Of a DNA stretch of 52,439 nt, positions 1 through 23,668 are shown piece after piece. Source of the stretch: Gammaproteobacteria bacterium (GTDB lineage Bacteria > Pseudomonadota > Gammaproteobacteria > GRL18); the NCBI GenBank assembly GCA_016744375.1, contig JADGEM010000029.1:1-52439 (forward strand), written 5' to 3'. The translations under genes and the position numbers were made by a program. Under the pieces are notes generated by a model that saw only the letters and a program-made list of their open reading frames with translations, did not search any database and was not told where the DNA came from. Position 1 is the stretch's first letter. Every line of letters begins with the position of its first letter.

Positions 1-2
1 TC

Positions 3-254
3 TTAAGTCGATATAAAATTGATCATTAATGATCCCAAATAGATCAAATCAGATCGATTGAGAAAAATTTTAACTCCAAACTTAAGTAATGATAACATGG
101 TGTATTTTTTATCATTCCATACACGACGACTTTTATGAAACCTCCTAAATGTGTGATAAGAATCCATAACCTTTTCAACTTCTGTAATTATTTGCTCAGA
201 TTCAGCTTGAATATCTTGTAAAATTTTTTTTATACCAAAACCAGTATCATTCAT
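3..254 (-). CDS. Small hypothetical protein (83 aa)
   Basis: An 83-residue open frame starting at an ATG preceded by a good ribosome binding site (GGAGA, 6 nt upstream), which is why I accept it. The N-terminal half is predicted helical and acidic (KKILQDIQAESEQIITEVEK); the C-terminal half is basic and hydrophobic. I recognise no family. It lies in the AT-rich mobile-element end and is convergent to nothing nearby. It may be an accessory gene of that element. It could be a shortened remnant of a larger protein. Confidence 0.5.
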   Translation of the reverse strand: MNDTGFGIKKILQDIQAESEQIITEVEKVMDSYHTFRRFHKSRRVWNDKKYTMLSLLKFGVKIFLNRSDLIYLGSLMINFIST

Positions 255-760
255 TTATGTTCTCCATTTATCAGTGGGTACAATACTAACTAGTGTCCCC
301 ATATTTTTATTGGGTCCCTCATTAAAATAACGAGCTGGGTTCATAGTGCCCCCACCCTGAGAAAATGGGGACACTAAATATGCCCTATTAAATTTATGAA
401 AAGTAATCTTTCTGGATTAGAAATTAATATTTATAAAAGCAGAAACAATTAATTGAATACACTATAGGTACCAACACTTCTTTTCATATTTCTATTTTAA
501 GTTAATCATATATTTCTATTCCCTAATGGTTGCACCATTTTTTACGTTTCATAGAACTTCCTTTAATTTCTAAAACATAAAACAACTATTTAAATCAGTT
601 ATCATCATTTCAAATTTAATTTATAAACATCAAAGAGCAGATCATCGCTATAAGCGCACAAAAAGTGTGTTTGAGGCAACTATAGACTTATTGAAATTCG
701 GTATCATAGTTTCATCGTAATCATGTATTACATTTAAAAATTATCACAACAGGAGAATTT
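255..760. other. AT-rich non-coding stretch of the mobile element
   Basis: No convincing gene on either strand. It contains the 11-bp inverted repeat described separately (291-301 and 366-376). The promoter of the gene at 761 should be in its right end, but I could not pick a clear -35/-10 pair. Confidence 0.5.
291..376. repeat. 11-bp inverted repeat, 64 bp apart
   Basis: TAGTGTCCCCA at 291-301 is exactly reverse-complementary to TGGGGACACTA at 366-376. The enclosed 64 bp contain further G/C-rich short blocks in otherwise AT-rich DNA. The arrangement resembles the ends of a miniature inverted-repeat element or a degenerate transposon remnant. No target-site duplication was identified. Confidence 0.5.
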
Positions 761-1036
761 ATGAAAAGCCTACATTTAAAAGTTCGAGTCGATGAATATT
801 CCCATCCACATTTGTATTGGTTATTAAAGGAGGAGTCTGACAAAGAGGCACAAGCGATTTCATTGATAGGATTAGGACAATATTATTTGGAGTTGATGGA
901 TGAACTCAATCGAGCAATTCCATCTGACCTTTTAGATAAAATTTTTAAAGAATCAATGAAATCTTGCAAAGACGAATTACTTGTTTCGCATATAATTCAG
1001 TATGTTGAAAAATCATTAAATAAATACCAATTCTAG
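761..1036 (+). CDS. Small hypothetical protein, possible ribbon-helix-helix fold (91 aa)
   Basis: The ATG follows a strong ribosome binding site (AGGAGA, 5-6 nt spacing). The protein opens with an alternating strand-like segment (SLHLKVRV) followed by helical acidic sequence. That layout is seen in small ribbon-helix-helix DNA-binding proteins of plasmids and integrative elements, but the match is only by shape. A strong hairpin (1054-1091) follows the stop. Function unknown; a role in copy control or partition of the element is a guess. Confidence 0.5.
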   Translation: MKSLHLKVRVDEYSHPHLYWLLKEESDKEAQAISLIGLGQYYLELMDELNRAIPSDLLDKIFKESMKSCKDELLVSHIIQYVEKSLNKYQF

Positions 1037-1053
1037 AAAGTCATGTAAAAAAG

Positions 1054-1091
1054 CCTGGTTATGGCCACACAATAGTGGCTATAACAACAGG
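1054..1091. other. Strong imperfect hairpin
   Basis: GTTATGGCCAC (1058-1068) pairs with GTGGCTATAAC (1075-1085) across a 6-nt loop, with one G-T pair. The stem extends through CCTG/CAGG with a 2-nt bulge. There is no T run, so a classic intrinsic terminator is unlikely. Confidence 0.55.
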
Positions 1092-1351
1092 TTCCCTCTC
1101 ACCATAATAACCACTCCTAAGTAATGGATGTTGGATGCATCTTTTATTCATATACACTTCCTGGATCGAATCATTTTTGACATATATTTAAGCCAAACAA
1201 CAATAAAACTGTATGAATTTTGACCTTCTCATACAAGTCAATTAAAAAAAACAAAAAAGTGTCAAAAAATCCAAACAATAAAAATCATCATTTTCCCCTT
1301 CAATTTCAGACACTTAAAAAATTAAACGTCTCACTCGTTACGTACGGCATG

Positions 1352-1376
1352 TGGGACGCACAAATCGTGCGTCCCA
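1352..1376. promoter_or_regulatory. Perfect 10-bp inverted repeat upstream of the AlpA-like gene
   Basis: TGGGACGCAC and GTGCGTCCCA flank a 5-nt spacer. The repeat is G/C-rich in AT-rich surroundings, about 70 bp upstream of the AlpA-like start. It could be an operator, an iteron-like site or a transcript hairpin. No T tract follows. Confidence 0.5.
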
Positions 1377-1444
1377 GTGAAGTAAAGACATTTTTAAATA
1401 CCTCAAAATGTATCCAAATCAACTATAAACGACAAGGATATACA

Positions 1445-1663
1445 ATGTTACGAGAAAAAAAATCATCAACAGAAACAGCTTATTATTTACGTTATTCAGA
1501 AAACACTTTACGAAAAAGCAGAGGAACAGGTCAACTGGGTGGTAGAAAAGCTCCTCCATACATAAAGATTGGAGGCAGAATTTTTTACGAGGTGACAGAT
1601 TTAGATAATTGGATAAATAGCTTTTGCTCACAAGAAAATACAGGAAAAAATTTTAAAGAGTAA
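1445..1663 (+). CDS. AlpA/excisionase-like small DNA-binding protein (72 aa)
   Basis: I start this gene at ATG 1445, which has AAGGA 8 nt upstream; the frame is open further upstream but that part is low-complexity and looks non-coding. The protein reads as a short winged or MerR-type helix-turn-helix: STETAYYLRYSENTLRKSR, then a GGRKAPPYIKIGGRIFY segment and DLDNWINS. That pattern (tail reading 'Y..DL..WI') is typical of AlpA and phage excisionase/regulator proteins. It sits just upstream of the replication genes and probably regulates or assists excision or replication. Family assignment is by motif only. Confidence 0.7.
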   Translation: MLREKKSSTETAYYLRYSENTLRKSRGTGQLGGRKAPPYIKIGGRIFYEVTDLDNWINSFCSQENTGKNFKE

Positions 1664-1725
1664 TAGTCAAATATTATAAAACTGCACTGGCCATAATAAA
1701 AACATAAATTATTTAGGAACAAAAA

Positions 1726-2727
1726 ATGAGATATCCCTGGTTTAAGCTTTACCCCAAACTCTGGTTATTAAATCAAAAAGTCATGAAATTGACATATGAA
1801 GAGCGAGGTATTTATTTTCAACTACTAGTCTTACTGTGGGAAATGGACAAAGAATGCACCCTATTAGATGATGACATTTTCATTGCCCAACTGCTATCAA
1901 TAAGAGTAGGAAAATGGAAAAAACTTCGTTCAGTATTAATTGAAGGTTCTAATCCCGTACTATTTGTCAAAAATGGCATGATTTATAATAAAAGATTAAC
2001 TTCTGAATATTTTGACGCAAGAAAAAGATCAGAAAATGGAAAATATGCTTCTGATATGAAAAAAATGAAGAAAAATAAAACAAGAATCGAGGGGAGTATA
2101 GACAAAAACTCTATAAATAATGATGTTTGTACAAAAAAAAGTAAGAAAAAACCTTCAGAAGAAAACGTTAACACTTTGAAAAATAAAGAATATAGTTTAA
2201 CGACAGTTAAGCCAGAGGTTACCTATAAAGATAAAGATAAAGATAAAGATAAAGATAAAGAAATAAATAATACAACTGAAGATACACCCACATCTACCTC
2301 AGTCCAAAAACAATCAGAAACCGTAAAGAAAATTTTTACTTTTTGGAAAAAAATAATGAACCATCCAAAAGCAAAGTTGGACCCCAAAAGATCTAAAGCA
2401 ATTTCAGCTCGACTAATGGACGGTTACACAGAAGAGGACATAAAAAAAGCAATTCTGGGTTGCAAAAAAAATCCCTTTAATATGGGTCAAAATGATAACA
2501 ATCAAATTTACGATGATATAGAGCTAATATGTCGTGATGTAATAAAGCTCGAAAAATATTTGAACTATAATCCAACAACCAATATTCATAAAAACTCTTT
2601 ATTAGAAAAGCAATTTGGTATTAAAACGACTGTTTTCTTGAACAAAGATCAACAGAAAGTGCAGGGGAATATTAATTCTGGAGATGAATTTCTTGCTCAA
2701 ATTGGAGAAATTAAAAATGATCAATGA
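1726..2727 (+). CDS. DUF1376-family phage/ICE replication protein (333 aa)
   Basis: The N-terminus (residues 1-100) has the DUF1376 (YdaU-type) signature: WFKLYPKLWL, then LTYEERGIYFQLLVLLWE. A lysine-rich linker follows, including a KD dipeptide repeat from a DNA hexamer repeat. The C-terminal part (about 195-285) resembles conserved phage replication C-terminal domains: FWKKIMNHPKAKLDPKRSKAI, then GCKKNPFNMGQNDN. Such proteins act as replication initiators or helicase-recruiting proteins in prophages. The stop overlaps the start of the next gene by 11 bp, so the two are probably translated together as an initiator/loader pair. Confidence 0.8.
   Translation: MRYPWFKLYPKLWLLNQKVMKLTYEERGIYFQLLVLLWEMDKECTLLDDDIFIAQLLSIRVGKWKKLRSVLIEGSNPVLFVKNGMIYNKRLTSEYFDARKRSENGKYASDMKKMKKNKTRIEGSIDKNSINNDVCTKKSKKKPSEENVNTLKNKEYSLTTVKPEVTYKDKDKDKDKDKEINNTTEDTPTSTSVQKQSETVKKIFTFWKKIMNHPKAKLDPKRSKAISARLMDGYTEEDIKKAILGCKKNPFNMGQNDNNQIYDDIELICRDVIKLEKYLNYNPTTNIHKNSLLEKQFGIKTTVFLNKDQQKVQGNINSGDEFLAQIGEIKNDQ
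2225..2260 (+). repeat. Six tandem copies of the hexamer ATAAAG inside the replication gene
   Basis: Six perfect head-to-tail copies encode a Lys-Asp repeat in the linker of the DUF1376 protein. The unit is a multiple of three, so gain or loss of copies keeps the frame and would only change linker length. Confidence 0.85.
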
Positions 2728-3349
2728 TCACGCAAAAATATTTAAAGATATGATGATCAGTACGGCTGAAATATATAATCGAAGTATAAGTCCTGGACTT
2801 ATTAATATATATTGGCGATCACTGGAACAGTACAGTATTAATGAAGTAATTAATGCATTTGAACGACACCTTTCAAATCCAGACAATGGAATGTTTATGC
2901 CTAAACCTGCAGATATCATTCGTCTATTGGAAGGTACGAGTCTAACAAATGCAATGCTAGCCTGGTCCAAAGTGGAAAAAGCAATTCATCAAATTGGTCC
3001 TCATAAATCCATTGTGTTTGATGATCCAATTATTCATCAAGTTTTGGATGATATGGGAGGGTGGATAGATTTATGTAGCCACAATCAGAAAGAAATGGAG
3101 TTTAAAAGTAATGAATTTACTAAACGTTTCATAAGCTTAAAAACTTCACCTCGTGATTATTATGTAAAAAGTTTAAAAGGTTTGGCTGATGTGCATAACA
3201 ATGCTGAAGGATTTGCATCATCATCACCATATCTATTCGGTAACAAAGAAAAAGCTGAGCAGGTATATATTGGTGGTCATAAAAATATTTCTGAAATACA
3301 TCAATTAACAAAAAAATTAAAAATTACTTCTACTACAGTAAATAAATAA
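2717..3349 (+). CDS. Replication-partner protein of the mobile element, DUF6475-like (210 aa)
   Basis: ATG 2717 is chosen because GGAG lies about 9 nt upstream and it overlaps the preceding stop by 11 bp. The N-terminal third (SPGLINIYWRSLEQYSINEVINAFERHLSNPDNGMFMP followed by KPADIIRLLEG) has the helical pattern of phage proteins encoded directly after replication initiators, where P-like helicase loaders sit. The rest includes WSKVEKAI and GGWIDLC segments common in that group. I assign it to replication by context and general resemblance. No ATPase motif is visible, so a structural loader or adaptor is more likely than an enzyme. Confidence 0.6.
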   Translation: MINDHAKIFKDMMISTAEIYNRSISPGLINIYWRSLEQYSINEVINAFERHLSNPDNGMFMPKPADIIRLLEGTSLTNAMLAWSKVEKAIHQIGPHKSIVFDDPIIHQVLDDMGGWIDLCSHNQKEMEFKSNEFTKRFISLKTSPRDYYVKSLKGLADVHNNAEGFASSSPYLFGNKEKAEQVYIGGHKNISEIHQLTKKLKITSTTVNK

Positions 3350-3382
3350 GAATATCTCTTCACGTTACTTAAAATGTTATAA

Positions 3383-3583
3383 GCGACAACTTATCTTGAC
3401 ATAGAGGGAATAGGTTTTCACGTTCGCAGGAATACGCTGCAAGCGGCATGGAATAATAACCTAAATAATTTAGCTATACAGTTTGTTATAGGAGATAGAG
3501 ATAAAACCATCGCTATTTATAATGAAGCCTGTGTGAGGACCAGCAAAAACAGCATTGCAAAAGAGAAAACTATTTTCACTTAA
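3383..3583 (+). pseudogene. 66-codon open fragment without a start codon
   Basis: Directly after an in-frame TAA (3380-3382), an open frame runs to a TAA at 3581-3583 with coding-like composition (IGFHVRRNTLQAAW and FVIGDRDKTIAIYNEA are representative segments). It has no ATG, GTG or TTG near its beginning and no ribosome binding site. It is better in GC than its surroundings. I read it as the C-terminal remnant of a gene broken by rearrangement at the element end. I cannot name the parent family. Confidence 0.35.
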
Positions 3584-3637
3584 TTTATTGATTTTTATAC
3601 GAATAATAAAGATAGAACGGGTATTTTAACTTTAACT

Positions 3638-3683
3638 CACCAGCACCCCATGCTGGTGCGCTACCAGGCTGCGCTATGCCCCG
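3638..3683 (-). pseudogene. Truncated tRNA-Pro(GGG): 5' half only
   Basis: Read on the minus strand from 3683, this is a textbook tRNA-Pro: acceptor 5' strand CGGGGCA, D arm GCGC/GCGC, anticodon stem CCAGC/GCTGG with loop ATGGGGT (anticodon GGG). After position 46 the sequence departs from any tRNA: no paired T stem, no 3' acceptor strand TGCCCCG and no CCA. The intact promoter is upstream. The break at the end of the anticodon arm marks an insertion or deletion junction with the element on the left. It cannot fold as a full tRNA, so proline CCC codons must be read by another tRNA, for example the UGG isoacceptor. Confidence 0.8.
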
Positions 3684-3729
3684 ACTGAAGAAAGATATCT
3701 GGAAACAGATATCCTGTTTGTTGGCGCAC

Positions 3730-3758
3730 ATTATAAACACAGACAAGCCCCATATCAA
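3730..3758 (-). promoter_or_regulatory. Promoter of the truncated tRNA-Pro gene
   Basis: On the minus strand TTGATA (3758-3753) and TATAAT (3735-3730) are 17 bp apart, followed by a G/C-rich discriminator (GTGCGCC). This is a near-consensus sigma-70 promoter of the stable-RNA type. It now drives only a tRNA fragment and then the mobile-element end. Confidence 0.75.
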
Positions 3759-3800
3759 GCGGTTTGTACCTGCTATCACAATATTTATCAGCCTTTCAGT

Positions 3801-3824
3801 TAGCTCCAATCATTTTGACTAATC
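3801..3824. repeat. 24-bp direct repeat, left copy
   Basis: These 24 bases are identical, same strand, to 11246-11269, with TAGCTCC at the start and GACTAATC at the end. The copy overlaps a 14-bp palindrome (3819-3832, CTAATCT/AGATTAG). It sits between the nadE remnant and the tRNA-Pro promoter. Together the two copies bracket the NAD/kinase cluster. Confidence 0.85.
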
Positions 3825-3836
3825 TAGATTAGCCAT

Positions 3837-4043
3837 TCACCCTAATGTCACTGAACCTACACCACCTGAAATCCCCAGTACAAAACCTCGTTGTCCTGAA
3901 TTAATTAATTGTTCTTTCATAAAAAAAATCCACTGCCTGATCTCAGCTGATTGATTAATCTCTGACTCAACCCGCATTTGAGATACAATTTCTTTTTACA
4001 TCTCCGACTTTTTTTGTATTACCACAGCATTTGAATTTTTCAT
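3837..4043 (-). pseudogene. nadE: nadE (NAD synthetase) N-terminal remnant
   Basis: After ATG 4043 (GAGGG 7 nt upstream) the frame reads MKNSNAVVIQKKSEM, then a TAA at 3996-3998. It continues in the same frame as an NAD synthetase N-terminus: EINQSAEIRQWIFFMKEQL, then GFVLGISGGVGS, ending in a TGA at 3837. The ATP-pyrophosphatase loop SGGxDS is present but its Asp is Gly, and about three quarters of the enzyme is missing. It is 37 bp downstream of nrtR on the same strand, so it was once the last gene of this NAD unit. A functional nadE must exist elsewhere. Confidence 0.75.
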
Positions 4044-4080
4044 GATCAAACCCTCTTTTTTAAATTAGCCAGTCTTTGTG

Positions 4081-4797
4081 TTAGTTTCTGGCATATAAAC
4101 CTCTTGGAAAAAAGAGTGATTTTTCTACCCCTTTTTTCATTTTATATAACACAGCTTTTTTGAAACCTTTATCTGATTTCTTACCTGTATCAATTAGAAA
4201 ATCGGCTTTTTTAATTGAGCGTCTAAAAAAGGTCTTATCTAATTTACATCCCATAATTAGCTCATAGACCGCCATCATGTCGGGTAATGTAAACTCATTG
4301 CCCAGTAAATGAGCAGCAATTGGACTGTACTCTAATTTAGCCTGAATACGACTCAAGGCCATCTTTATAATATCGCCATGATCAAAAGCCAGTTTTCTAG
4401 GCACCCTGTTTTGTACACTTTTCCACTTTGTCTCTGAAACACCATCTCCCGCGATCAGATCTACTTTGTCATAAGGCATTAATGCAAAATAAGCCACGCT
4501 GGTTACCCACCCTCTTGGATCGCGTTTTTCATCACCAAAGGTATACAACTGTTCCAGATAATTCGCTTTAGCTCCAGTTTCTTCAACTAATCGACGATTC
4601 GCAATATCAATTAATGATTTATCAATACCAATCTTTCGAAATCCACCAGGTAAAGCCCAATGATCTTTAAATGGATCATGCGCTCTATTAACCAGCAAAA
4701 CTTTTAGTTCATCTTCATGAACCGTAAAGATCACAATATCTGCTGAAAGCGAAGTGTCATATTTAATTGCTGCATCATCTATATTATTGTTACCCAT
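4081..4797 (-). CDS. nrtR: NrtR: Nudix-related transcriptional regulator of NAD metabolism (238 aa)
   Basis: An N-terminal Nudix-like domain (about 15-150: DIVIFTVHEDELKVLLVNR, WALPGGF, RRLVEETGA) is followed by a C-terminal winged helix (TLPDMMAVYELIMG; DKTFFRRSIKK). This is the NrtR architecture; the family represses NAD genes and senses ADP-ribose or related nucleotides. The Nudix box is degenerate (RE is RR), fitting a sensor rather than a hydrolase. I choose ATG 4797 (GGAAG 6 nt upstream) over a TTG at 4851 without a site. The start overlaps the decayed zinc-ribbon frame by 8 bp. The operator at 5042-5058 suggests self-regulation. Confidence 0.88.
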   Translation of the reverse strand: MGNNNIDDAAIKYDTSLSADIVIFTVHEDELKVLLVNRAHDPFKDHWALPGGFRKIGIDKSLIDIANRRLVEETGAKANYLEQLYTFGDEKRDPRGWVTSVAYFALMPYDKVDLIAGDGVSETKWKSVQNRVPRKLAFDHGDIIKMALSRIQAKLEYSPIAAHLLGNEFTLPDMMAVYELIMGCKLDKTFFRRSIKKADFLIDTGKKSDKGFKKAVLYKMKKGVEKSLFFPRGLYARN

Positions 4798-4998
4798 GAT
4801 ATTCTTCCAAATTAATGTCACTTGATTTGCCAATGACTTTTTTACAATCAAAGCAGGTGATATTTTTATTTTTTGCTAACATTTTTCCTGGAACATCCAA
4901 CACCTTTTTATCAAAAGATAGGGTTTCTGTATGCCGAGGGTTGATACCATCAGGAATTCAGTAATACTTCCACATTTGGGACGTTTATCTGGGAGCAT
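4790..4998 (-). pseudogene. Frameshifted small zinc-ribbon gene upstream of nrtR
   Basis: From ATG 4998 the frame reads MLPDKRPKCGSITEF. One missing base near 4951-4953 moves the rest to another frame: DGINPRHTETLSFDKK, then NITCFDCKKVIGKSSD, with a stop at 4790. The two parts resemble one zinc ribbon of about 70 residues with two Cys pairs (CPxCG and CFDC), in which the first Cys is now Arg (CGT for TGT). The stop overlaps the nrtR start by 8 bp, as in a coupled operon gene. Programmed frameshifting is possible, but the Cys loss favours decay. Confidence 0.5.
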
Positions 4999-5041
4999 CT
5001 TTCTCTCTATCCTTTTAACAAAACTATTAACCTTTCCATCT

Positions 5042-5075
5042 AGTAGTATCTTACTACCAACTAAGTGGAATGCAA
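5042..5075 (-). promoter_or_regulatory. NrtR operator and promoter of the zinc-ribbon/nrtR unit
   Basis: AGTAGTATCTTACTACC (5042-5058) is one base off the palindrome AGTAGTANNNTACTACT found three more times in this cluster. On the minus strand TTGCAT (5075-5070) and TAAGAT (5053-5048) are 16 bp apart, so the operator covers the -10 region. The -35 lies in the last codons of the kinase gene. This implies a second, autoregulated transcription start for nrtR. Confidence 0.7.
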
Positions 5076-6743
5076 GCTCATTGTGAACAACCTTTCATCA
5101 ACTGTAAATGCCACTCTGCCTGCATCATTAGCCAGTCTCATATAGCTGTGAATTTGCGGATCTTCAACCAATTTTACAGCGTCACTAAAAGGTTCAGATG
5201 AAGTAATTTCAATTAGATTATCACTGGATAAATACACCACGATCCCTTTATCCAAAACGGTAAAATTAATGGTCTGATCAACATCGGAACGAAACTCAAT
5301 ATCATAATTCAAATAATTGTGTGAGAAACGAACTCTAGCCTGAGTATAATTACCTTTCTTATCAGCTAAATTCATTACTGCCACACCTTGTTCATATTTT
5401 GCTTCAACAATGGTATAGGGATCTAACTCATTAATCGCCATTATTGGCATAATGCCTGATGCAACAGGAATTAGAAGATGCGTTTTACCTAAAATATTCT
5501 GAACAACCAAGCCATCAAATACTTCTGTGGCATGAGGCAATACTTTTCTGACCATTCCAGGTGCAACGATTAACTTATCGCCCATAGTGATTATTTGAAT
5601 TTCCATGAGGTCACTGCCATTTAGGACATAAGGAATATTTTTCTCAACAAATATTTTTTTAGCCTTAATCAATGTTTCATTTACAATCTCTCCACTGTCA
5701 TTCAATACCGTCAATAAATCATTACAAATCTTAAGAAAAAGAGGTTCAGTCTTATTATTAAGAACCATTGCTTTGACTTTTTCAGGAATGTCATAATGTG
5801 AGGATCCAATAAATAACTCATTACCTGCTCGTATCACTCTTTGACCATTAATCGTATTAAATCGTTTAATCAACGAATCAAACATCCCTATTTCTTTTAT
5901 TTGTACCTTGTCACCATTTTTGATTTCTCGACGATTGATCATTGAAACAATCTGTATATTACCCGTTGGCGGTTCTATTCTTTCACCCCGTTCAAACAAT
6001 GCTTCAAACCAGTTCATCCATTCTTTGGGGATCGTTGAAAAATCACGAACTGAAGAAGGGTATTTAATATCTGAGTTAAGCACGGATATTCCAGCTAAAA
6101 TTCGTGTCTCAAAATCTTTTTTCAAACCACTTTTACTACGACCTTTAAATGGGTGAATTCCTGTAAACAGTTGAAAAGCGATAATCGCAAATGAAAACCA
6201 ATCACTTTTAGTATTAAATGTCTGCTGTGTGTAATCCCTTATGCTAGGCATAATAGCTGTAGCCGAATACCCTGGTGTCTGAAATGAATCAACATCTATA
6301 AAATAAGCCTTGGATGATTTTGCATCCGTCAAATAGTTAAATTCATTGCCATCAATTTGTAGAAATCCACTTTTATGAATGTATTGAATTGTTTCCTGCA
6401 TCGATTTAATCAAAGTAAAGACTTTTTCAGTGGTGATCCCATTTGCCTGCCAATAGGAACTGGTAAATAAACGGGCCAATGGTACCGGATCATTAACTCG
6501 ACTCATCATAAAACCAATTCTTTGTTGCTGATCATTAAACACCGAACCTGTTGGACGAATAATATTTGATCGATCCAAATGCTGCAGCTCCTCCAATTTT
6601 CCAACTGAGATCACTTTGTGTTTATCGATATAAATTTTAAAGACATTTTGTTTGTCGACATATAACTTACCTTCACCACCTTCCGCTAAAAAATTATCCT
6701 GATTCAGTGTGATTACACGTCCCTTATTGTCAAATATCTTCAT
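5061..6743 (-). CDS. Atypical Ser/Thr protein kinase, YegI-like (560 aa)
   Basis: Kinase domain about 1-265: glycine loop LAEGGEGKLY, ATP lysine K36 (VFKIYI), catalytic Asp D131 with Asn N136 (QIDGNEFNYL, replacing the usual HRD...N), metal Asp D150 (FIDVDSFQ, replacing DFG), and an F helix (SDWFSFAIIAFQLFTG). The DVDS form is seen in YegI-type kinases that travel with a PP2C phosphatase and a vWA protein, exactly as here. Residues about 270-560 are strand-rich, perhaps a beta-propeller-like sensor. No membrane segment is visible. Start ATG 6743 has GGGAGG upstream. Active kinase is likely but unproven given the missing HRD His. Confidence 0.82.
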   Translation of the reverse strand: MKIFDNKGRVITLNQDNFLAEGGEGKLYVDKQNVFKIYIDKHKVISVGKLEELQHLDRSNIIRPTGSVFNDQQQRIGFMMSRVNDPVPLARLFTSSYWQANGITTEKVFTLIKSMQETIQYIHKSGFLQIDGNEFNYLTDAKSSKAYFIDVDSFQTPGYSATAIMPSIRDYTQQTFNTKSDWFSFAIIAFQLFTGIHPFKGRSKSGLKKDFETRILAGISVLNSDIKYPSSVRDFSTIPKEWMNWFEALFERGERIEPPTGNIQIVSMINRREIKNGDKVQIKEIGMFDSLIKRFNTINGQRVIRAGNELFIGSSHYDIPEKVKAMVLNNKTEPLFLKICNDLLTVLNDSGEIVNETLIKAKKIFVEKNIPYVLNGSDLMEIQIITMGDKLIVAPGMVRKVLPHATEVFDGLVVQNILGKTHLLIPVASGIMPIMAINELDPYTIVEAKYEQGVAVMNLADKKGNYTQARVRFSHNYLNYDIEFRSDVDQTINFTVLDKGIVVYLSSDNLIEITSSEPFSDAVKLVEDPQIHSYMRLANDAGRVAFTVDERLFTMSLHST

Positions 6744-6765
6744 ATCACACCTCCCAGATTATCTT

Positions 6766-7563
6766 CTAATGTGCAAATACCATCGCAGCCAGACTTAAAT
6801 CATCACTAGGATAAACATTCAGCTTATCCATCTCTTTTAAAAATCGTTTCATTCGACGTTTAATAAAGTTTTCATTGATGCTCTTAAATTCACTCAATGA
6901 GCAAGCAACGTCAATAGGCTCCATTAATTCACCCGAAATTGTATTCACAAAACTGCTTAAACCATCTGAAGCAATTATTAATGAACTCAAATTATTTTTA
7001 TTAAAACTCATAACGGTTGGTTCAAAAATCGATTCCTCAACTAAAACTCCATCACTTTCAATGGTTTTCGTCTCTGATAATGAGGAGCCTTGATATACAA
7101 CATCTCTGGATTTATCCAGTTTATAACTTAGGTAGTACGGCGCATTATGACTGTACTCAACCGTTTTCAAATGGACAATATTTGAGTTATCTCGATAAAT
7201 CACCGCACCATCACCATAAAAATAGACATAGACCTTATCATCAAAAGCAAAGGCAACAATCAGCGTGGCATCCAGTGATGATAAAGGTGTACCAACCACT
7301 TTTGTTGCCGCTTCTGATTTCAATGCTGCATACAGGCCCAGCTCCTTAGCATCAGGAACTTGCTCATGACTCAACTGCTCCTCAAGGTATTCTTTAACCG
7401 ACATCACCAGCAATCTCGCCCCTATGTCGGTAAAATTAGAAGAAGAACAACCATCCGACAGTATCAAATAAGGTTCTGGTTCAATACCACTGATGACATA
7501 ATCCTCATTAATCAAATGAGACTTCCCCATCACGAAATAGGAATCAACCACTATCTGCTCCAT
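6766..7563 (-). CDS. PP2C-family Ser/Thr phosphatase, PphC/YegK-like (265 aa)
   Basis: Metal-binding PP2C motifs appear in order: SHLINEDYV, LILSDGCSSS, SLDATLIVAF, YGDGAVIYR, IIASDGLSSF and the final SDDLSLAAM. These give the full set of Asp residues for two metals. Start ATG 7563 is used because GGGAGG precedes it; an in-frame GTG 27 bases earlier has no site. The gene ends 22 bp before the kinase and begins 40 bp after the vWA gene, so it is co-transcribed with both. It most likely reverses phosphorylation by the neighbouring kinase, as in other kinase/phosphatase/vWA triads. Confidence 0.88.
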   Translation of the reverse strand: MEQIVVDSYFVMGKSHLINEDYVISGIEPEPYLILSDGCSSSNFTDIGARLLVMSVKEYLEEQLSHEQVPDAKELGLYAALKSEAATKVVGTPLSSLDATLIVAFAFDDKVYVYFYGDGAVIYRDNSNIVHLKTVEYSHNAPYYLSYKLDKSRDVVYQGSSLSETKTIESDGVLVEESIFEPTVMSFNKNNLSSLIIASDGLSSFVNTISGELMEPIDVACSLSEFKSINENFIKRRMKRFLKEMDKLNVYPSDDLSLAAMVFAH

Positions 7564-7603
7564 AACATCCTCCCGTTGCCCTGAATCCACAGGGCTTTAG
7601 AAA

Positions 7604-8341
7604 TTAAAAAGATAAGGACTGACTGGCCGCACCAGAACCAAGCGCCTGAGACTGACTGGAGATTGATTTAGAAACAAATCCCGCTAATTTAGCCAGAGAC
7701 TGAGCTGAAGCATCTTTTACATCAACATACTGAGAAAATTCAGCATCCTTAGCATAATTTTCAAGTAGCTTTTTCACCTGACCATTATCTGTATTGATCC
7801 CAATTAACATGGTTACAATGGACTCCAGTTGCTCATTGCGTCTTATTTCTTGCACCTTGTCAGCAATATTTCTTTCTGTTGCAAGGCGAGATTGGTTATC
7901 ACCACCATCTGAAATAATATAAACAGCAGCATTGGTGTCAAAGTCTTGTTGATACAATACGTTGGCATATTGTTCAGTTGCAGCAACGGCATCCATAGTG
8001 GCATCAAACAACGATGTCATTCCATTAGGAACAAAATCATTAATATCTAAGGACTGAATATCACTGATTGATTTAAACCCAAATATTTCCACAGTTTCAG
8101 TATTAAAAGTTAAAAGGCGGACCAAAAGATTATCTGCCCTGGGTGACTTACGTGAGGCATCAAGTACTGCTAAGACCGCTGATTTAAGTTCTGCATTAAA
8201 ACCATAAACACTGGCTGAAATATCCACCGCTATGGTAACCAGTGTGTATTCCGTTGCACCCAAGTCATCAGGTCTCACAGCCGAGAACTTAAAATTACTG
8301 GCTCCAGGGATAGTGATGCTTTGCATATTATTGTTATTCAT
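7604..8341 (-). CDS. vWA-domain protein, TerY/YegL-like (245 aa)
   Basis: A single von Willebrand factor A domain: MIDAS motif DISAS (in TIAVDISASVYGF), the MIDAS Thr in PNGMTSLFDA, and the Asp in YIISDGGDNQS. This is a complete metal site, so the protein probably binds a partner through a divalent cation. No signal peptide, so cytoplasmic. ATG 8341 is chosen (GGAG 8 nt upstream) over GTG 8350. It leads the kinase/PP2C pair, as YegL/TerY proteins do. Its start is preceded by a hairpin that ends next to the ribosome binding site. Confidence 0.88.
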   Translation of the reverse strand: MNNNNMQSITIPGASNFKFSAVRPDDLGATEYTLVTIAVDISASVYGFNAELKSAVLAVLDASRKSPRADNLLVRLLTFNTETVEIFGFKSISDIQSLDINDFVPNGMTSLFDATMDAVAATEQYANVLYQQDFDTNAAVYIISDGGDNQSRLATERNIADKVQEIRRNEQLESIVTMLIGINTDNGQVKKLLENYAKDAEFSQYVDVKDASAQSLAKLAGFVSKSISSQSQALGSGAASQSLSF

Positions 8342-8353
8342 AGTGATCACTCC

Positions 8354-8408
8354 TTCACTTCAATTAAGTGAATTGTTTGGTTAGCCTTAATTCAAAGTAA
8401 ATTAAGGC
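8354..8408 (-). promoter_or_regulatory. Two tandem hairpins between pncA and the vWA gene
   Basis: GCCTTAATT and AATTAAGGC (8384-8408) form a perfect 9-bp stem with a 7-nt loop. TTCACTT and AAGTGAA (8354-8372) form a 7-bp stem with a 5-nt loop. On the transcript the second stem ends immediately before the GGAG of the vWA gene. There is no T run. Differential expression or mRNA processing between the salvage and signalling halves is plausible. Confidence 0.55.
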
Positions 8409-8417
8409 ATTTCAAAT

Positions 8418-9218
8418 TTAAATAATAACTTCAGCCGCCTTAACCGTTTGCATGCCACGATTTTTCATCTCAGCTAGAAAATCCGTAGCCAAAGATTCAA
8501 AGCCAGGAACAGGTGAAGTTGTGTCCTCAATTAAAACCATTTTCCTAATTGATTCATCACCAAAATTATCGGCAATATCACGAACTGTTTCGGCAACACA
8601 GTGACTTAAGGCTTGCCCTGTTATTAAAACTAAATCAGCATTTTCCAACGTCTGGATTAAGCCCGTATTTAACTGAGTGGTTGGGTCGCTAGGATCGCTT
8701 ACGTCTGCCTTAACCGCACTGTATTGCTCTGACCATGGATTATGACCTTTAGTAACGGCATTAAACCGAGTCATTCTGGCGATTTCCCAATCTGTAACCG
8801 CACCATAAATACTATCAACAATATTGTGTCCCCAGTTTCCAACTAAGGTGTGAGGTGGCCAGATACAGAGAGCGTATTTACCATTTTTCTCTAATTCAAT
8901 GACATAATTCAGTAAACGCTTTTGGTAAGCTGGATTAAATGCTCGCCATTTTCCTTGCTCAACATCCTCTTTTGATATAATGGTAAAAGGATCAGGATTA
9001 CGCCCTTTACTGTCAACCCACATTAGAGGGTGAGCGATATCAAGTAGTTGGTGAGTATCAAGAGTAATATTAATACTGCTGATTGCTCGCTGATTTTTTG
9101 CAATTACCTGACTTAAACGCTTAGAATCGTCTACAGCACCCGGCACACCAAGCGCTGAATCAGGCAGATCCATGAAGTCATTTTGCGGATCGATTATAAT
9201 GAGTTCGACTTTTTGCAT
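8418..9218 (-). CDS. pncA: Nicotinamidase-like cysteine hydrolase (266 aa)
   Basis: Isochorismatase/nicotinamidase fold with the catalytic triad in view: D10 (IIDPQNDF), K157 (VTKGHNPWSEQYSA) and C207 (ALSHCVAETVRD); metal-site candidates are D54, H56 and H63. It should deaminate nicotinamide to nicotinate, the substrate of the pncB product encoded 62 bp upstream. At 266 residues it is longer than the usual 180-215 aa, with extra sequence around 65-135, so a related amide substrate is not excluded. A ribosome binding site (GGAGG) precedes ATG 9218. Its own operator (9247-9263) suggests an internal NrtR-controlled start. Confidence 0.85.
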   Translation of the reverse strand: MQKVELIIIDPQNDFMDLPDSALGVPGAVDDSKRLSQVIAKNQRAISSINITLDTHQLLDIAHPLMWVDSKGRNPDPFTIISKEDVEQGKWRAFNPAYQKRLLNYVIELEKNGKYALCIWPPHTLVGNWGHNIVDSIYGAVTDWEIARMTRFNAVTKGHNPWSEQYSAVKADVSDPSDPTTQLNTGLIQTLENADLVLITGQALSHCVAETVRDIADNFGDESIRKMVLIEDTTSPVPGFESLATDFLAEMKNRGMQTVKAAEVII

Positions 9219-9243
9219 AATACACCTCCAAGTGCATCAATCT

Positions 9244-9266
9244 GCAAGTAGTATTATACTACTTGC
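9244..9266 (-). promoter_or_regulatory. NrtR operator between pncB and pncA
   Basis: A perfect 23-bp palindrome (11-bp arms) contains the 17-mer AGTAGTATTATACTACT at 9247-9263. The minus strand carries a consensus -10 TATAAT inside it, but I find no good -35 at the right distance, so the promoter is weaker evidence than the operator. It would let NrtR control pncA and downstream genes separately from pncB. Confidence 0.7.
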
Positions 9267-9280
9267 TAGGCTAAAAAAGG

Positions 9281-10750
9281 TTAACAATTAGACATCTGAA
9301 TTTCATTTAATGAAACCAGTTGTGACTCTCTTATCCATTGAACGGAAGCTTCTAACCTTTGAGAATACTGAGGTCTTAAAGCAAAGTTCTCAGGACGTTT
9401 TGCATCGCCAATATACCCCTTGGCAACCGTCTTCCAACGCTCCGTAAGACGAGCGATACGTTCTTGTTTGCTGGCAATGGTGACTTGCATTAGACCATCC
9501 AAACAAATTGTTTCAAATAAATCATCCCATCCCTGTGCTTTCAATGATTCAACTTCACTGACTAAAGCAATTTGACGTTCAATGCCTTTAATCGTTTGGC
9601 GCTCCATAAGGCTGATTTCACCAGGATAAGATTCTTTACCACGATTATCCTCATCACCAAACTTCATTGTTTCGATACCATCGTCATAGCTGGAGACTTT
9701 ATAGACCATGGAAATATCATCACGCTTCACTCCACTGACAAGATACCCACCAACACCATATAATATTTTATTTAACGGAAAACCTTTCCTTTTTGCAATC
9801 GCCTCAAAAGAAGCAATATCACGAGGGTTTAATCCTGATTCCAATATAATTGATGGCATAAATACACTGGCATCAAATTTATTTAAAAACTGATCAATAA
9901 TCACCTCTAACTGATAAGCTATATCTCCCGAGTCTAGACGAACTGACAAATCAACATTAACCACAATATCTTCATAGCGTTCTTCAATTACGGCTAAAGC
10001 TGCAGGCAAACCTGACAGTAATGTATTTCTGGTATCAAGTAAGAACGATAACTTTACTTTTTCTTTAACCTGTTCAGAATCTTTAAACCATAACATTTGT
10101 TCTAAAGCCTGAATAAAGGCATCATAATCAGATGAAAAACGTTGTGTAAAACGATGCCCCATTGAGCCGCCAGCTTTAATACCCGCTTCTTTAGCGGCTA
10201 TACCTGATGACGTCATTTGTAATCCAACACCAGCCAACGTTTTAATTTTCTTAATATGCTCCTCTACCTTGTCAGCTCGCATACCCACTTCAAAAACACG
10301 TTCTCTTTCCCAGTTAAGCGCCTGAGCAATTTTTGTAAAACGGGTTGCCACTTGAATCGATGTCATCATATTAGCAATAAATACAGGCTCTGGTATCGCC
10401 GCCAAAAATGCAGGCGCTTTGATAACTGCAATCGGTTCACCAGGTAGAATGACTTCCCCAGCTTTTACACCTCTTACCGTAATAGGCAAGTTGGTTAATT
10501 TAACAATCTCTTCTGCAGCGTCTTTATTAAAAGGAACCCCTTGTGAAATCCAAAATTGATACGCTTCTTCAACATCTCTCATGGTTGGACGCCATACAAT
10601 ATATTCTTTAACCATTTCAGCCAAATCAGGAACGACTAAAGGCCCACCCGTTCTTGCGTATAAAATATGTGTTTCTGATTTCAAAGCCCCTTCATTAATA
10701 AGAAAGCCCATAGTCAGATGATAACCATCAGTTGTTAAAAAAATATTCAT
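9281..10750 (-). CDS. pncB: Nicotinate phosphoribosyltransferase (489 aa)
   Basis: Makes nicotinate mononucleotide from nicotinate and PRPP, the committed step of NAD salvage. Recognisable family features: N-terminal TTDGYHLTMGFL, the Tyr/Arg substrate region LYARTGGPL, the GSMGHRFTQRF motif of NAPRTases, VRLDSGDIAY (phosphate/PRPP site) and YGVGGYLVSG. Length is close to the bacterial form. Start ATG 10750 has AGGGGG about 8 nt upstream. It is the first gene of the cluster and has a strong promoter overlapped by two operators. Confidence 0.92.
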   Translation of the reverse strand: MNIFLTTDGYHLTMGFLINEGALKSETHILYARTGGPLVVPDLAEMVKEYIVWRPTMRDVEEAYQFWISQGVPFNKDAAEEIVKLTNLPITVRGVKAGEVILPGEPIAVIKAPAFLAAIPEPVFIANMMTSIQVATRFTKIAQALNWERERVFEVGMRADKVEEHIKKIKTLAGVGLQMTSSGIAAKEAGIKAGGSMGHRFTQRFSSDYDAFIQALEQMLWFKDSEQVKEKVKLSFLLDTRNTLLSGLPAALAVIEERYEDIVVNVDLSVRLDSGDIAYQLEVIIDQFLNKFDASVFMPSIILESGLNPRDIASFEAIAKRKGFPLNKILYGVGGYLVSGVKRDDISMVYKVSSYDDGIETMKFGDEDNRGKESYPGEISLMERQTIKGIERQIALVSEVESLKAQGWDDLFETICLDGLMQVTIASKQERIARLTERWKTVAKGYIGDAKRPENFALRPQYSQRLEASVQWIRESQLVSLNEIQMSNC

Positions 10751-10767: not shown

Positions 10768-10784
10768 AGTAGTGTTTTACTACT
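10768..10784 (-). promoter_or_regulatory. NrtR operator 1 at the pncB transcription start
   Basis: AGTAGTGTTTTACTACT, one base off the shared palindrome. It lies about 14-30 bp downstream of the -10 box, so it would overlap the start of transcription. Its centre is 35 bp from operator 2. Confidence 0.75.
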
Positions 10785-10797
10785 TACTATAGATATC

Positions 10798-10826
10798 ATA
10801 TTAGTAGTATATTACTACTAAGTCAA
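10798..10826 (-). promoter_or_regulatory. pncB promoter with NrtR operator 2 in its spacer
   Basis: On the minus strand TTGACT (10826-10821) and TAATAT (10803-10798) are exactly 17 bp apart. The palindrome AGTAGTATATTACTACT (10803-10819) fills the spacer. A repressor bound there must exclude RNA polymerase. Confidence 0.82.
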
Positions 10827-11245: not shown

Positions 11246-11269
11246 TAGCTCCAATCATTTTGACTAATC
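11246..11269. repeat. 24-bp direct repeat, right copy
   Basis: Identical to 3801-3824, 7,445 bp away in the same orientation. It lies between the pncB promoter side and the sucrose operon, so the two copies bracket the NAD/kinase cluster. Confidence 0.85.
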
Positions 11270-11347
11270 CAGCAATGTCATTTCTCCCTTAAGCCAGGAA
11301 AAAGCTCCTCCAAAAATTAGACTTAAACTATCTTAACTATCCATGGC

Positions 11348-20402: not shown

Positions 20403-21881
20403 ATGTCCAACAGTAAACTGAATTTATTTTCCTTTACCGGAAAAACAAAGATACTGCATTTAACCTGGGTTGCTTTTTTTATCAGTTTTTTTGTCTGGTT
20501 TAATCACGCTCCCCTTCTCATCGTCATCAAAGAGAGCCTGGGTTTAAGCTCGCAGCAAATCAAAACACTCTTAATTCTGAATGTTGCTTTGACAATTCCC
20601 GCCCGCATTATCATCGGTATGCTGGTTGATAGGTTCGGTCCCAAAAGAACCTATGCAACACTCTTGTCTCTGGGCAGCATCCCCTGTTTTATGTTTGCCC
20701 TGGCTGACACTTTTGAACAGCTGGCACTGGCTCGTTTTTTACTAGGTTTTGTCGGTGCCGGGTTTGTAATTGGTATCCGTATGATGGGAGAATGGTTCCC
20801 TGCAAAACAGGTAGGCGTTGCTGAAGGTATATATGGTGGCTGGGGTAATTTTGGCTCTGCAGCTGCTGCAATGAGCCTGCCAACGATTGCTCTGGCTTTT
20901 GGCGGTGATGATGGCTGGAGATATGCCGTTGCTCTAACCGGGGTAATTGCCCTGATTTATGCCGCTATTTATTTCTTAAGTGTCACAGACACACCCAAAG
21001 GCTCAACTTACTTTAAGCCTAAGCGTATCGGAGCAATGGAAGTCACTTCTAAAGGTGATTTATATTTTTACATTTTAATGTCAATTCCAATGTATGCTAC
21101 CTTATCATTACTCACCTGGAAGCTTTCTCCTGCAGGTGTCAGTTTACTTGAGGGCAATACCGCTAATATAATTTACGCAGGTATTAGTGCTTTGTTTTTG
21201 TATAATGTTTATAAAATATTTCATATTAATAATGAGCATTTAAAAGAGCCCATTCCCGAAATTCACCGTTATAAGTTTAAGCAGGTTGCTATTCTGGATT
21301 TAGCCTATATGGTGACCTTTGGTTCTGAGCTGGCGGTTGTTTCTATGTTACCACTGTTCTTCTATGATACTTTCAATGAAACTCATGGCGTCACAGCAGT
21401 GATGGCTGGTCTATTAGCTTCTGGTTTTGCCTTTATGAATCTGATTGCACGCCCGGGCGGTGGCCTCATCAGTGATAAGTATGGTCGCAAGAAATCATTG
21501 ACGATATTTTTATTAGGTCTGGTTGCAGGTTATTTTATTATGAGTCAGATTGAGTCCAGCTGGTCATTATTTCTGGCGGTAGCAGTGACTATGCTTTGTT
21601 CGTTTTTTGTACAAGCTGGGGAGGGAGCTGTTTTTGCCATGGTGCCCTTGATTAAACGACGTATGACGGGACAGATTGCCGGCATGGTCGGTGCCTACGG
21701 TAATGTTGGTGCAGTTTTGTTTCTTACAGTACTGTCATTTGTCTCACCACAAATCTTCTTTTTAACCATCGCCGGGGCGGCACTTTTTGTGCTAGTCGCC
21801 ATTCAGTTTATTGAGGAGCCCAGGGGACATATGGCTGAAGTCCTGCCTGATGGCACAGTTGAGATGATTGAAGTTGATTAA
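20403..21881 (+). CDS. nasA: Nitrate/nitrite MFS transporter, NarK/NasA type (492 aa)
   Basis: Twelve-helix major facilitator protein with two copies of the nitrate signature region: around 140-160 ([16 protein letters not shown]) and around 420-435 ([18 protein letters not shown]), plus the conserved arginine in [13 protein letters not shown] and DKYGRKKS loops. It imports nitrate and/or exports nitrite across the inner membrane. The sigma-54/NtrC promoter and the linked PP2C-kinase gene point to assimilation rather than respiration. No reductase genes are in the window. Start ATG 20403; the PP2C-kinase gene follows after 35 bp. Confidence 0.88.
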
Positions 21882-21916: not shown

Positions 21917-23668
21917 ATGGCTAAACTCATGAACAAAAAGCTGGAAATCAGTCTTGGTTCCTATAGTGACAAAGGCGTTAAGGCTGACAACGATGATTGT
22001 CTCGGCTTTTTAATACCTGATAAACACCCCCTGAGAAACAAAGGGATAGTGGTTGCCATTGCTGACGGCATGAGTTCCAGTGAAGCAGGAAAGGAAGCCA
22101 GTCATGCCTGTATCAGTGGTTTTATCAACGACTACTACAGTACTCCCGATTCGTGGACAGTAAAGAGTTCATCACAGAAAATACTTTCTGCACTTAACAG
22201 CTGGCTATACAGCCGGGGGCATACAGACTATCAAAGTGCCCGGGGGATGGTAACAACACTGACCCTGTTAATTTTAAAATCAACTACAGCACATATTTTT
22301 CATATTGGCGACTCACGCATTTACCGTTTACGTGATGGTGAGCTGGAACAATTGACCAGAGACCATCGATTCTGGGTTTCCGACGAAAAAAATTATCTTA
22401 ATCGAGCCATGGGCATTGATCTCCATCTGGATATTGATTATCGCAAAGTACCACTAGAACAGGATGATATTTTTTTATTATCCACGGATGGCATACATGA
22501 TTTTATCACGACAAAATCACTCAAAGAAATCCTCACCAGTTCCAGCAGTAATCTCTGTGACACGGATTTATTAAATCAAAAATGCCTTAAAATTGCCCAG
22601 CTTGCCAGTAGCAACCAGAGTGACGATAATCTTAGCCTGCAGTTGCTGAAAATAGAAAATCTCCCTCTGCCTGAAGAAGAGGAAGTTCTACAGACAGCCC
22701 ATGAACTGCCATTCCCTCCCCCCTTAGAACCAGGAATGATCCTGGATGGTTATCGAATCATCAAAGAAATCCATGCCAGTAAGCGCACCCAGATTTATAA
22801 GGCTCAACAACAAAAAACAAAACAAACAGTCATTCTAAAAACACCTTCTATTAATTATCAGGATGATGAATATTTTATCGAACAATTTCTCCATGAAGAA
22901 TGGGCTGGTAAACGTATCGATTCGCCCTATGTTCTAAAAATCATCAGTTCGAAAAAAAAACCACATTCGCTCTATTATGTGACAGAGTTTCTCGAAGGAA
23001 TCACTCTGCGGGAATGGATGCAGAAAAATCCTCTGCCACCAATTGAACAAGTGCTGCCCATTATTGAACAAATAACCCGGGGCTTACGAGCATTTCATCG
23101 CCTGGAAATGTTACATCAGGATTTAAAACCTGAAAATATAATCATCACCTCAGAAGGAAAGGTTAAAATTATTGATTTTGGTTCGGTTAAAATTGCCGGA
23201 ATCAATGAAATGAAAAAACAAACATCGGATGAAATTATTTTAGGCACAGTTAACTATAGTGCACCTGAATTTTATCTGGGTCAGTCCGGTGACGAACGCA
23301 GTGATTTATATTCACTGGCCGTTATTACCTATGAACTGCTGAATAATCATTTACCCTTTGGTAAGGATATGTCGGAAAAAGCCACTTATCGACAACTTTC
23401 CCAATTGCAATATGTTGCCAGCATTCATTTAAACCCGATGGTGCCCAACTGGATGGATGGTGCCATACAAAAAGCCTTATCTCTGGATATTAAAGTACGA
23501 CAAGAAGATGTTTTTGAATTCCTGCACGATTTGCAGCACCCGAATCCTCACTTTCTGAAGACCAGTGCAATCCCCCTCATTGAACGCAATCCGATGCTGG
23601 TTTGGCGGAGTTTGAGCATTGTTTCACTGATATTAAATTTAATCCTTTTTTATCTTTTGGCAACCTGA
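21917..23668 (+). CDS. Fused PP2C phosphatase - Ser/Thr protein kinase with C-terminal TM (583 aa)
   Basis: Residues 8-245 are a PP2C domain (VKADNDDCLGF, VAIADGMSSS, HIGDSRIYRLRDG, LSTDGIHDF, SDDNLSLQLL). Residues 270-545 are a canonical Hanks kinase (LHQDLKPENII, KIIDFGSVK, YSAPEFYLG, ERSDLYSLAVITYELL). One C-terminal helix (SLSIVSLILNLILFYLLA) anchors it. All catalytic residues look intact, so one polypeptide can phosphorylate and dephosphorylate. An equivalent gene sits beside nasA in Pseudomonas (PA1782/PA1783), so a role in nitrate uptake control is likely but is not established by sequence alone. Confidence 0.9.
   Translation: MAKLMNKKLEISLGSYSDKGVKADNDDCLGFLIPDKHPLRNKGIVVAIADGMSSSEAGKEASHACISGFINDYYSTPDSWTVKSSSQKILSALNSWLYSRGHTDYQSARGMVTTLTLLILKSTTAHIFHIGDSRIYRLRDGELEQLTRDHRFWVSDEKNYLNRAMGIDLHLDIDYRKVPLEQDDIFLLSTDGIHDFITTKSLKEILTSSSSNLCDTDLLNQKCLKIAQLASSNQSDDNLSLQLLKIENLPLPEEEEVLQTAHELPFPPPLEPGMILDGYRIIKEIHASKRTQIYKAQQQKTKQTVILKTPSINYQDDEYFIEQFLHEEWAGKRIDSPYVLKIISSKKKPHSLYYVTEFLEGITLREWMQKNPLPPIEQVLPIIEQITRGLRAFHRLEMLHQDLKPENIIITSEGKVKIIDFGSVKIAGINEMKKQTSDEIILGTVNYSAPEFYLGQSGDERSDLYSLAVITYELLNNHLPFGKDMSEKATYRQLSQLQYVASIHLNPMVPNWMDGAIQKALSLDIKVRQEDVFEFLHDLQHPNPHFLKTSAIPLIERNPMLVWRSLSIVSLILNLILFYLLAT

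Follow-up and report, generated by a model that had tools for sequence, protein, structure and literature searches.

A nicotinamidase-centred cluster of NAD, kinase, phosphatase and vWA genes that recurs in viral contigs and huge phages

We describe a gene cluster on contig JADGEM010000029.1 of a Gammaproteobacteria bacterium (GRL18; assembly GCA_016744375.1). The whole analysed stretch, positions 1-52,439, is called the window. Six uninterrupted open reading frames lie on the minus strand in the order pncB, pncA-like, vWA, PP2C, kinase and nrtR, just as they had been read from the sequence alone, and are separated by 62, 76, 40, 22 and 263 bp in succession from pncB to nrtR. With a probability of about 60%, we interpret the cluster as a mobile, ADP-ribose-induced module for the deamidating repletion of nicotinamide adenine dinucleotide (NAD+), equipped with a putative YegI-type phospho-switch. 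The full module is mainly a feature of viral contigs and huge phages, with a minority of occurrences in cellular genomes. The sequence-only reading had hung on the arrangement not being peculiar to this genome, and it is not, because the same arrangement recurs in viral contigs and in a metagenome-assembled genome (MAG) of the Planctomycetota. The earlier remark that no system of this composition had been described agrees with the openly licensed literature, in which we found no description of this gene combination.

The genes and gene pieces of the cluster are as follows (aa, amino acids; MIDAS, metal ion-dependent adhesion site).

9281-10750, minus strand: pncB-like nicotinate phosphoribosyltransferase (NAPRT), 489 aa; Pfam/NCBIfam and PDB profile search
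8418-9218, minus strand: PncA-like nicotinamidase-family hydrolase, 266 aa; D10/K157/C207, D54/H56/H63, PDB profile matches
7604-8341, minus strand: vWA-domain protein, 245 aa; complete MIDAS (D40, S42, S44, T109, D145)
6766-7563, minus strand: PP2C-type phosphatase, 265 aa; Pfam, conserved residues
5061-6743, minus strand: YegI-type kinase (about 1-265) with a C-terminal beta-propeller-like domain (about 280-560); hhalign, structure model
4790-5094, minus strand: overlapping pair of out-of-frame coding pieces containing Cys pairs, identity unproven
4081-4797, minus strand: nrtR, NrtR winged helix and Nudix-like sensor with a degenerate Nudix box; Pfam, NCBIfam
3837-3995, minus strand: N-terminal remnant of nadE (NAD synthetase), 52 aa; NCBIfam PRK00768

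Recurrence in viral, plasmid and cellular DNA

The viral status of loci follows the database assignment (IMG/VR; GenBank phage records). A search of viral contigs with an alignment of four vWA sequences retrieved 36 loci, all of which carry a PncA-like gene upstream on the same strand, while the kinase and PP2C are each present in 33; two of the three loci that lack the kinase end soon after the vWA gene. A search with a single vWA sequence gave no matches in the same contigs. When near-copies were merged 31 loci remained, 29 of them with 6 kb of room, and all three partners occur in 28 of these. The scan of viral contigs that started from the PncA-like protein kept 80 of 120 loci (66 distinct, 63 with 6 kb of room), and among the 63 the vWA gene is found in 59, the kinase in 60, PP2C in 59 and all three in 57. 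Across 103 distinct loci the quartiles of the gap between the PncA-like and vWA genes are 17, 37 and 88 bp.

The gene order of the window was found in four viral contigs and in the Planctomycetota MAG, all five of which have nadE between pncB and pncA. These calls were judged by gene ends, as the automatic starts in one of the viral contigs and in the MAG are too far upstream. The order found again in these loci makes the cluster more than a chance assembly.

Of 50,697 phage records, four match the PncA-like protein (E 1e-10) and four the kinase (E 1e-5), and they are the identical four, one being a 6.6-kb fragment with a partial kinase; the vWA protein (E <1e-3) is matched in 41 records, including three of these. 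For one locus, in the 595-kb phage LR756511, viral status rests also on RIIA and RIIB lysis-inhibitor genes, which lie at 923-4408 and precede the PncA-like gene by 2-6 kb. Five contigs assigned to MAGs of the Patescibacteria type, from the candidate phyla radiation (CPR), encode PncA-vWA-PP2C-kinase, with the kinase frame split in one of them; these contigs may be phage contigs binned with their host. Among 72,556 plasmid records, 10 match the PncA-like protein and 3 of these 10 the kinase, with no kinase match outside them; the two genes are about 21 kb apart. Two Variovorax megaplasmids carry PncA-like and vWA genes together with a divergent NrtR, NUDIX, RecX, macro-domain, nucleoside deoxyribosyltransferase and NAD kinase genes, and a kinase relative stands at the distance of about 21 kb on three such plasmids. 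The vWA protein alone, searched across 274 genomes of the class, matched the window only.

The window's PncA-like protein is nearest to proteins of Competibacteraceae and of one other proteobacterial MAG, with 59-60% identity at best among the matches listed. Four of the seven Competibacteraceae loci have the arrangement PncA-PP2C-NrtR, possibly a reduced or ancestral form, and three have the PncA-like gene only; neither vWA nor kinase was matched in any of the seven. On a tree of PncA-like proteins (FastTree, 155 rows) the viral and genome labels switch at least 21 times, 11 of these switches being forced by starred branches, and the gene therefore seems to have moved repeatedly between viral and cellular genomes.

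NAD enzymes of the cluster and its relatives

The pncB product matches the Pfam family NAPRTase (2.6e-6) and TIGR01513 (1.4e-29, below the TIGR01513 cut-off), and its profile retrieves the NAPRT 2f7f as best match in the PDB (3.7e-75), with NAMPT-type enzymes at 3e-13 at best. Identification as NAMPT or Namat was rejected on this ranking. The structure model was poor (predicted local distance difference test, pLDDT, 66) and was set aside, so the NAPRT assignment comes from sequence profiles. The PncA-like protein falls slightly below the cut-off of the Pfam isochorismatase/nicotinamidase-like family (7.9e-6). Its profile retrieves six PDB sequences, five of which are named nicotinamidase or pyrazinamidase (best 5.6e-16), and D10, D54, H56, K157 and C207 are present in all 27 aligned relatives, H63 in 25. 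The catalytic and metal roles given to conserved residues, here and in the other cluster proteins, are those general to the families.

The sequence-only reading had placed two remnants among these genes. That of nadE at 3837-3995 is genuine (PRK00768, 2.9e-11 over 52 aa, NCBIfam). The zinc-ribbon label of the pieces at 4790-5094 did not hold up and must be regarded as unproven, since they match no Pfam or NCBIfam family and their best relative among the cluster loci compared reaches only E 0.6.

The host assembly encodes a complete nadE elsewhere and has five CTP_transf_like matches, among which NadD is not separable from its kin. The enzyme classes of the Preiss-Handler route are thereby divided, nicotinamidase and NAPRT in the cluster, NadE and the CTP_transf_like candidates elsewhere in the genome. 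No second NAPRTase match was found in the host assembly (about 95% complete), and the cluster may for this reason be the strain's sole means of nicotinate salvage. The PncA-like protein, PncB, NadD and NadE are predicted to run a deamidating salvage route.

The relatives encode a near-complete deamidating NAD pathway. The most frequent extra neighbour is NadE (30 loci, 28 of the 30 copies on the same strand), one copy of which matches Pfam NAD_synthase at 8e-18; other recurrent neighbours are CTP_transf_like (NadD-like), NADAR, ADP-ribosylglycohydrolase and Macro-like (below cut-off) proteins. PncA, vWA and kinase genes occur on the same strand in 94 loci (69 from viral or plasmid DNA, 25 from genomes), 27 of which have NAPRT nearby and 22 NadE. 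Whole-record searches covered 20 hand-picked, mostly long viral records from 76 distinct viral or plasmid loci, and detected NadE in 18, NAPRT in 17 (15 over the cut-off) and CTP_transf_like in 18. NadD as such is unproven in these records because CTP_transf_like is a broad family. Phage NadE is itself not new, because Bacillus phage G and others encode it: 34 of the 50,697 phage records match one phage NadE (tblastn, E 1e-10), a rate not strictly comparable with that of the Pfam search of chosen records. The window's NAPRT gave no match in phages (tblastn, E 1e-10); as the Pfam model detects NAPRTs in the chosen viral records, it is too divergent for this method.

In an alternative reading the PncA-like protein would make or destroy a signal instead of supplying NAD synthesis, and PncA-vWA-PP2C-kinase would be a phage signalling or host-takeover device that NAPRT, NadE and NrtR have joined only in some lineages. 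Such a device would suit the 52 of 94 loci in which the core has no NAPRT, NadE or NrtR nearby, and also the length of the window's PncA-like protein, 266 aa against 180-235 aa in the solved proteins that match its profile. However, 25-27 of 27 relatives keep the catalytic and metal residues of the nicotinamidase type, and the hand-picked viral records nearly all encode NadE and NAPRT when searched whole. We regard this explanation as unlikely, though it deserves more weight than any other alternative.

Kinase, phosphatase and vWA protein

The kinase scores slightly below the cut-off of Pfam Pkinase (1.5e-7) and keeps K36, D131, N136 and D150 in 60 of 60 relatives. In its structure model (pLDDT 93) repeated beta-sheets follow a kinase domain, and Foldseek matches this model to kinases and WD/NHL-type propellers. 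The phosphatase matches PP2C_2 (Pfam, 1.1e-12), and seven inspected positions are unchanged in 33 of 33 relatives. The vWA protein has a weak match to VWA_2 (Pfam, 0.028) and its profile has no PDB match at E 0.01; D40, S44, T109 and D145 are present in 24 of 24 relatives, with S or T at position 42. The PncA-like, vWA and kinase proteins are thus all below Pfam cut-offs, and their assignments are supported also by profiles, the structure model and conserved residues. With these residues conserved, the PncA-like protein, the vWA protein, PP2C and the kinase look active.

A likeness to the YegI-PphC-YegL set of enteric bacteria had been proposed for the three genes. It is strong for the kinase, which hhalign aligns with YegI at a probability of 98.7 (E 4e-16) over the kinase domain only, and distant for the other two, vWA against YegL and PP2C against PphC being remote profile matches with a probability of 84 each and about 21% identity.

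NrtR, palindromes and transcription

The nrtR product matches NrtR_WHD (PF21906, 3.2e-16) and NUDIX (PF00293, 2e-9) in Pfam, and NF050029 at 4.6e-54, below the NF050029 cut-off. Its Nudix box deviates from the canonical pattern, and so degenerate a box suits a sensing rather than a catalytic role.

When up to three mismatches were allowed, the pattern AGTAGTNTNNTACTACT gave 13 matches against 3.6 expected, a number reached in 0 of 100 shuffles (strands and overlapping shifts were each counted separately). Matches with 0-2 mismatches are confined in the window to 5042, 9247, 10768 and 10800-10803, and the best palindromes precede nrtR (one), pncA (one) and pncB (two).

10803-10819: second NrtR operator-like palindrome upstream of pncB, within a promoter-like site (10826-10798, minus strand)
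10768-10784: NrtR operator-like palindrome 5' of pncB
9247-9263: NrtR operator-like palindrome 5' of the pncA-like gene
5042-5058: NrtR operator-like palindrome in the interval from the kinase stop to nrtR
8384-8408, minus strand: 11-bp hairpin in the pncA-vWA gap

Because the best palindromes stand only at pncB, pncA and nrtR, it is a well-supported prediction that NrtR represses pncB, pncA (and the triad behind it) and nrtR itself. As a prediction, then, the NrtR-controlled cluster of the sequence-only reading is borne out by four operator-like palindromes. No such palindrome lies 5' of the vWA, PP2C or kinase gene in the window, and the minus strand shows no terminator call in the pncA-vWA gap; the three genes are therefore probably transcribed from the pncA promoter. 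A terminator in this gap was considered and rejected, as none was called and the hairpin there, without a T-run, is not a typical terminator. The hairpin at 8384-8408 is perfect and AT-rich, a possible attenuator or processing site.

Palindromes were compared among 39 loci with a good nrtR (near-copies unmerged, 20 shuffles each). Two further loci had palindromes that did not beat every shuffle and one beat all shuffles with both palindromes at one gene, and for 32 no recurring palindromes were reported; the remaining four, the window among them, speak for the predicted control and are named below. No single NrtR consensus is to be expected, since NrtR sites vary between lineages in the sites published in PMC6800001.

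A stretch peculiar to this strain, next to an integration site

Direct repeats of 27 bp, 26 of 27 positions identical, flank the cluster, and a broken tRNA copy adjoins the left one.

3801-3827, plus strand: 27-bp direct repeat, left copy
11246-11272, plus strand: 27-bp direct repeat, right copy
3638-3837, minus strand: truncated tRNA-Pro(GGG) copy with flank, 84.7% identical to the tRNA-Pro region of contig C136

The 22-bp core of the repeat occurs exactly only at these two places in the 4.29-Mb assembly. A copy with two mismatches lies on another contig, C136, between an intact tRNA-Pro(GGG) (3519-3750 of that locus, L220) and a phage-integrase gene, and C136 also carries a terminase small subunit gene. 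Because the repeats have this related copy beside an integrase, we favour site-specific integration over transposon-type target duplication. The tRNA-Pro copy in the window is broken inside the tRNA, and no complete tRNA was called within the window. Positions 1-3350, with DUF1376, DUF6475 and a weak HTH_17 match, are read as prophage debris, and the tRNA-Pro locus is probably an integration hot spot.

At the DNA level there is no full copy of the cluster in 15 other genomes of the genus (completeness 64-100%), two of which match over short lengths only, 143 and 63 bp. In one congener, whose flank is 96.7% identical, homology stops at 11316, 44 bp beyond the right repeat. The cluster is thus DNA peculiar to this strain that borders an integration site.

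This position would also be expected of an anti-phage defence island, in which the NAD genes supply or sense NAD, the kinase is the effector and the mobile stretch protects the bacterium. The kinase has weak PADLOC matches that point the same way (best mad6, 7.2e-8 over 32 residues), but the other five cluster proteins have none at E 0.01, a huge phage has the module near RIIA/RIIB genes, and viral loci have the full module more often than cellular loci do, so that we hold a defence island to be improbable. A usual bacterial operon for NAD salvage, joined by chance in this strain with hitch-hiking genes unrelated to it, would account for the many cellular PncA-like genes without the triad (PncA-like only in 29 of 78 distinct genome loci, short contigs included), but is highly improbable and already contradicted by the recurrence of the module, in which independent loci of phages and bacteria share one gene order and short, conserved gaps, on which grounds a pure chance cluster was dropped.

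Proposed mechanism

We propose that the cluster refills NAD+ when NAD+ is being cleaved. NrtR would repress pncB, pncA and itself, as predicted from the operators, and by analogy with published NrtR behaviour it would be released by ADP-ribose, a product of NAD+ cleavage. The nicotinamide set free by the same cleavage may feed the module. To judge from family and catalytic residues, the PncA-like protein would deamidate this nicotinamide and PncB would form nicotinate mononucleotide, which NadD-type and NadE enzymes would convert into NAD+ by the deamidating Preiss-Handler route, with NadE presumably supplied by the host in this genome and by the element itself in many phages. The vWA protein, PP2C and the propeller-bearing kinase may constitute a reversible phospho-switch that acts with the PncA-like protein and either gates the salvage enzymes or tunes a host target to the NAD state. 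In phages the module would likely serve to restore NAD+ in the infected cell, as a counter to NADase-type defences for instance.

Several observations weigh against this proposal. Among 49 distinct cellular loci with room that a scan of genomes with the PncA-like protein retrieved, the full triad is present in only 13 and the vWA gene in 17 (80 loci kept of at least 426). In a phylum draw of 398 genomes (E 1e-20) the PncA-like protein was matched in nine and the kinase in four, and only the window's genome has the two together. In some loci the kinase is missing from a PncA-vWA or PncA-PP2C-NrtR arrangement. A good NrtR lies near just 20 of the 94 PncA+vWA+kinase loci, and NAPRT, NadE or NrtR near 42, both numbers being lower bounds set by contig ends. 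Palindromes that recur at different gene starts and beat 20 of 20 shuffles were found in just 4 of the 39 nrtR loci, namely the window, L150, L152 and L160. The promoter and terminator scans performed no better than chance, with 24 promoter-like sites in the region against 28.6 expected. Finally, the hairpin in the pncA-vWA gap is stable (z -4.0) and could lower read-through into the triad.

Comparison with known systems

Mobile NAD+ repletion is already known; the signalling part is new. In the account of PMC9503650 the principal phage NAD+ enzymes are NadV, NadM and NadR, and the word nicotinamidase is absent from its main text. The phage NadV-NadM/NadR salvage and NARP1 (Adps-Namat), as they are presented in PMC9503650, PMC12774641 and PMC13232231, resemble the module in that mobile or phage genes rebuild NAD+, partly from products of NAD+ cleavage. 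They differ in that NadV and Namat take nicotinamide and NadR nicotinamide riboside, so the amide is kept, according to the same descriptions. In the module the nicotinamidase-like protein, NAPRT and NadE suggest a deamidating route, and there is a kinase-phosphatase-vWA set, with NrtR in some loci. Depleting NAD+ is a common means of stopping phages, and none of the phage routes described in the literature compared passes through nicotinate; they run through nicotinamide, nicotinamide riboside or ADP-ribose. As a conserved feature of huge phages, the nicotinamidase-centred module would be a route apart from these. We put forward tentatively, at somewhat less than even odds, that huge phages and other mobile elements possess a third, deamidating pathway of NAD+ reconstitution that is ADP-ribose-induced through NrtR and gated by the kinase-phosphatase-vWA switch.

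The YegI-PphC-YegL set of Escherichia coli has the same three protein classes in one stretch, with yegJ in between, and the kinase domains of YegI and of the cluster are clearly related. The window kinase continues into a beta-propeller-like domain, whereas the C-terminal half of YegI is not matched, the hhalign alignment ending with the kinase domain. YegI is reported as membrane-bound, and PphC as dephosphorylating it, in PMC13232886, which also relates that earlier work found no condition promoting YegI/PphC expression; PP2C is absent from the main text of PMC7824862. In the 16 kb around the E. coli set the annotation shows no NAD gene. For the TerY-P triad of tellurite systems, which has a TerY-type vWA protein and Ter neighbours, the plasmid stretch compared contains no gene called terY. 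If the tentative third pathway is real, YegI-type triads would gain their first biological setting.

With NrtR regulons the cluster shares a Nudix-winged-helix repressor and palindromes at NAD genes and at the repressor's own gene; unlike in those regulons, the pncA site here also precedes vWA, PP2C and kinase genes. The window palindrome is unlike the mycobacterial and streptococcal NrtR sites given in PMC6800001. The conflict systems centred on ADP-ribosylglycohydrolase (ARG), described in PMC9503650, likewise have a Nudix-type repressor, a phosphatase and a vWA protein near ADP-ribose chemistry. Their core, however, is the ADP-ribosylglycohydrolase, their phosphatase is mostly of the rhodanese type, and the relevant section of PMC9503650 describes neither a protein kinase nor a nicotinamidase.

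Elsewhere in the window, at 21917-23668 and unrelated to the cluster, a PP2C-kinase fusion protein is encoded directly after a transporter gene of the major facilitator superfamily (MFS) type (20403-21881), which we take to resemble a nitrate-type carrier.

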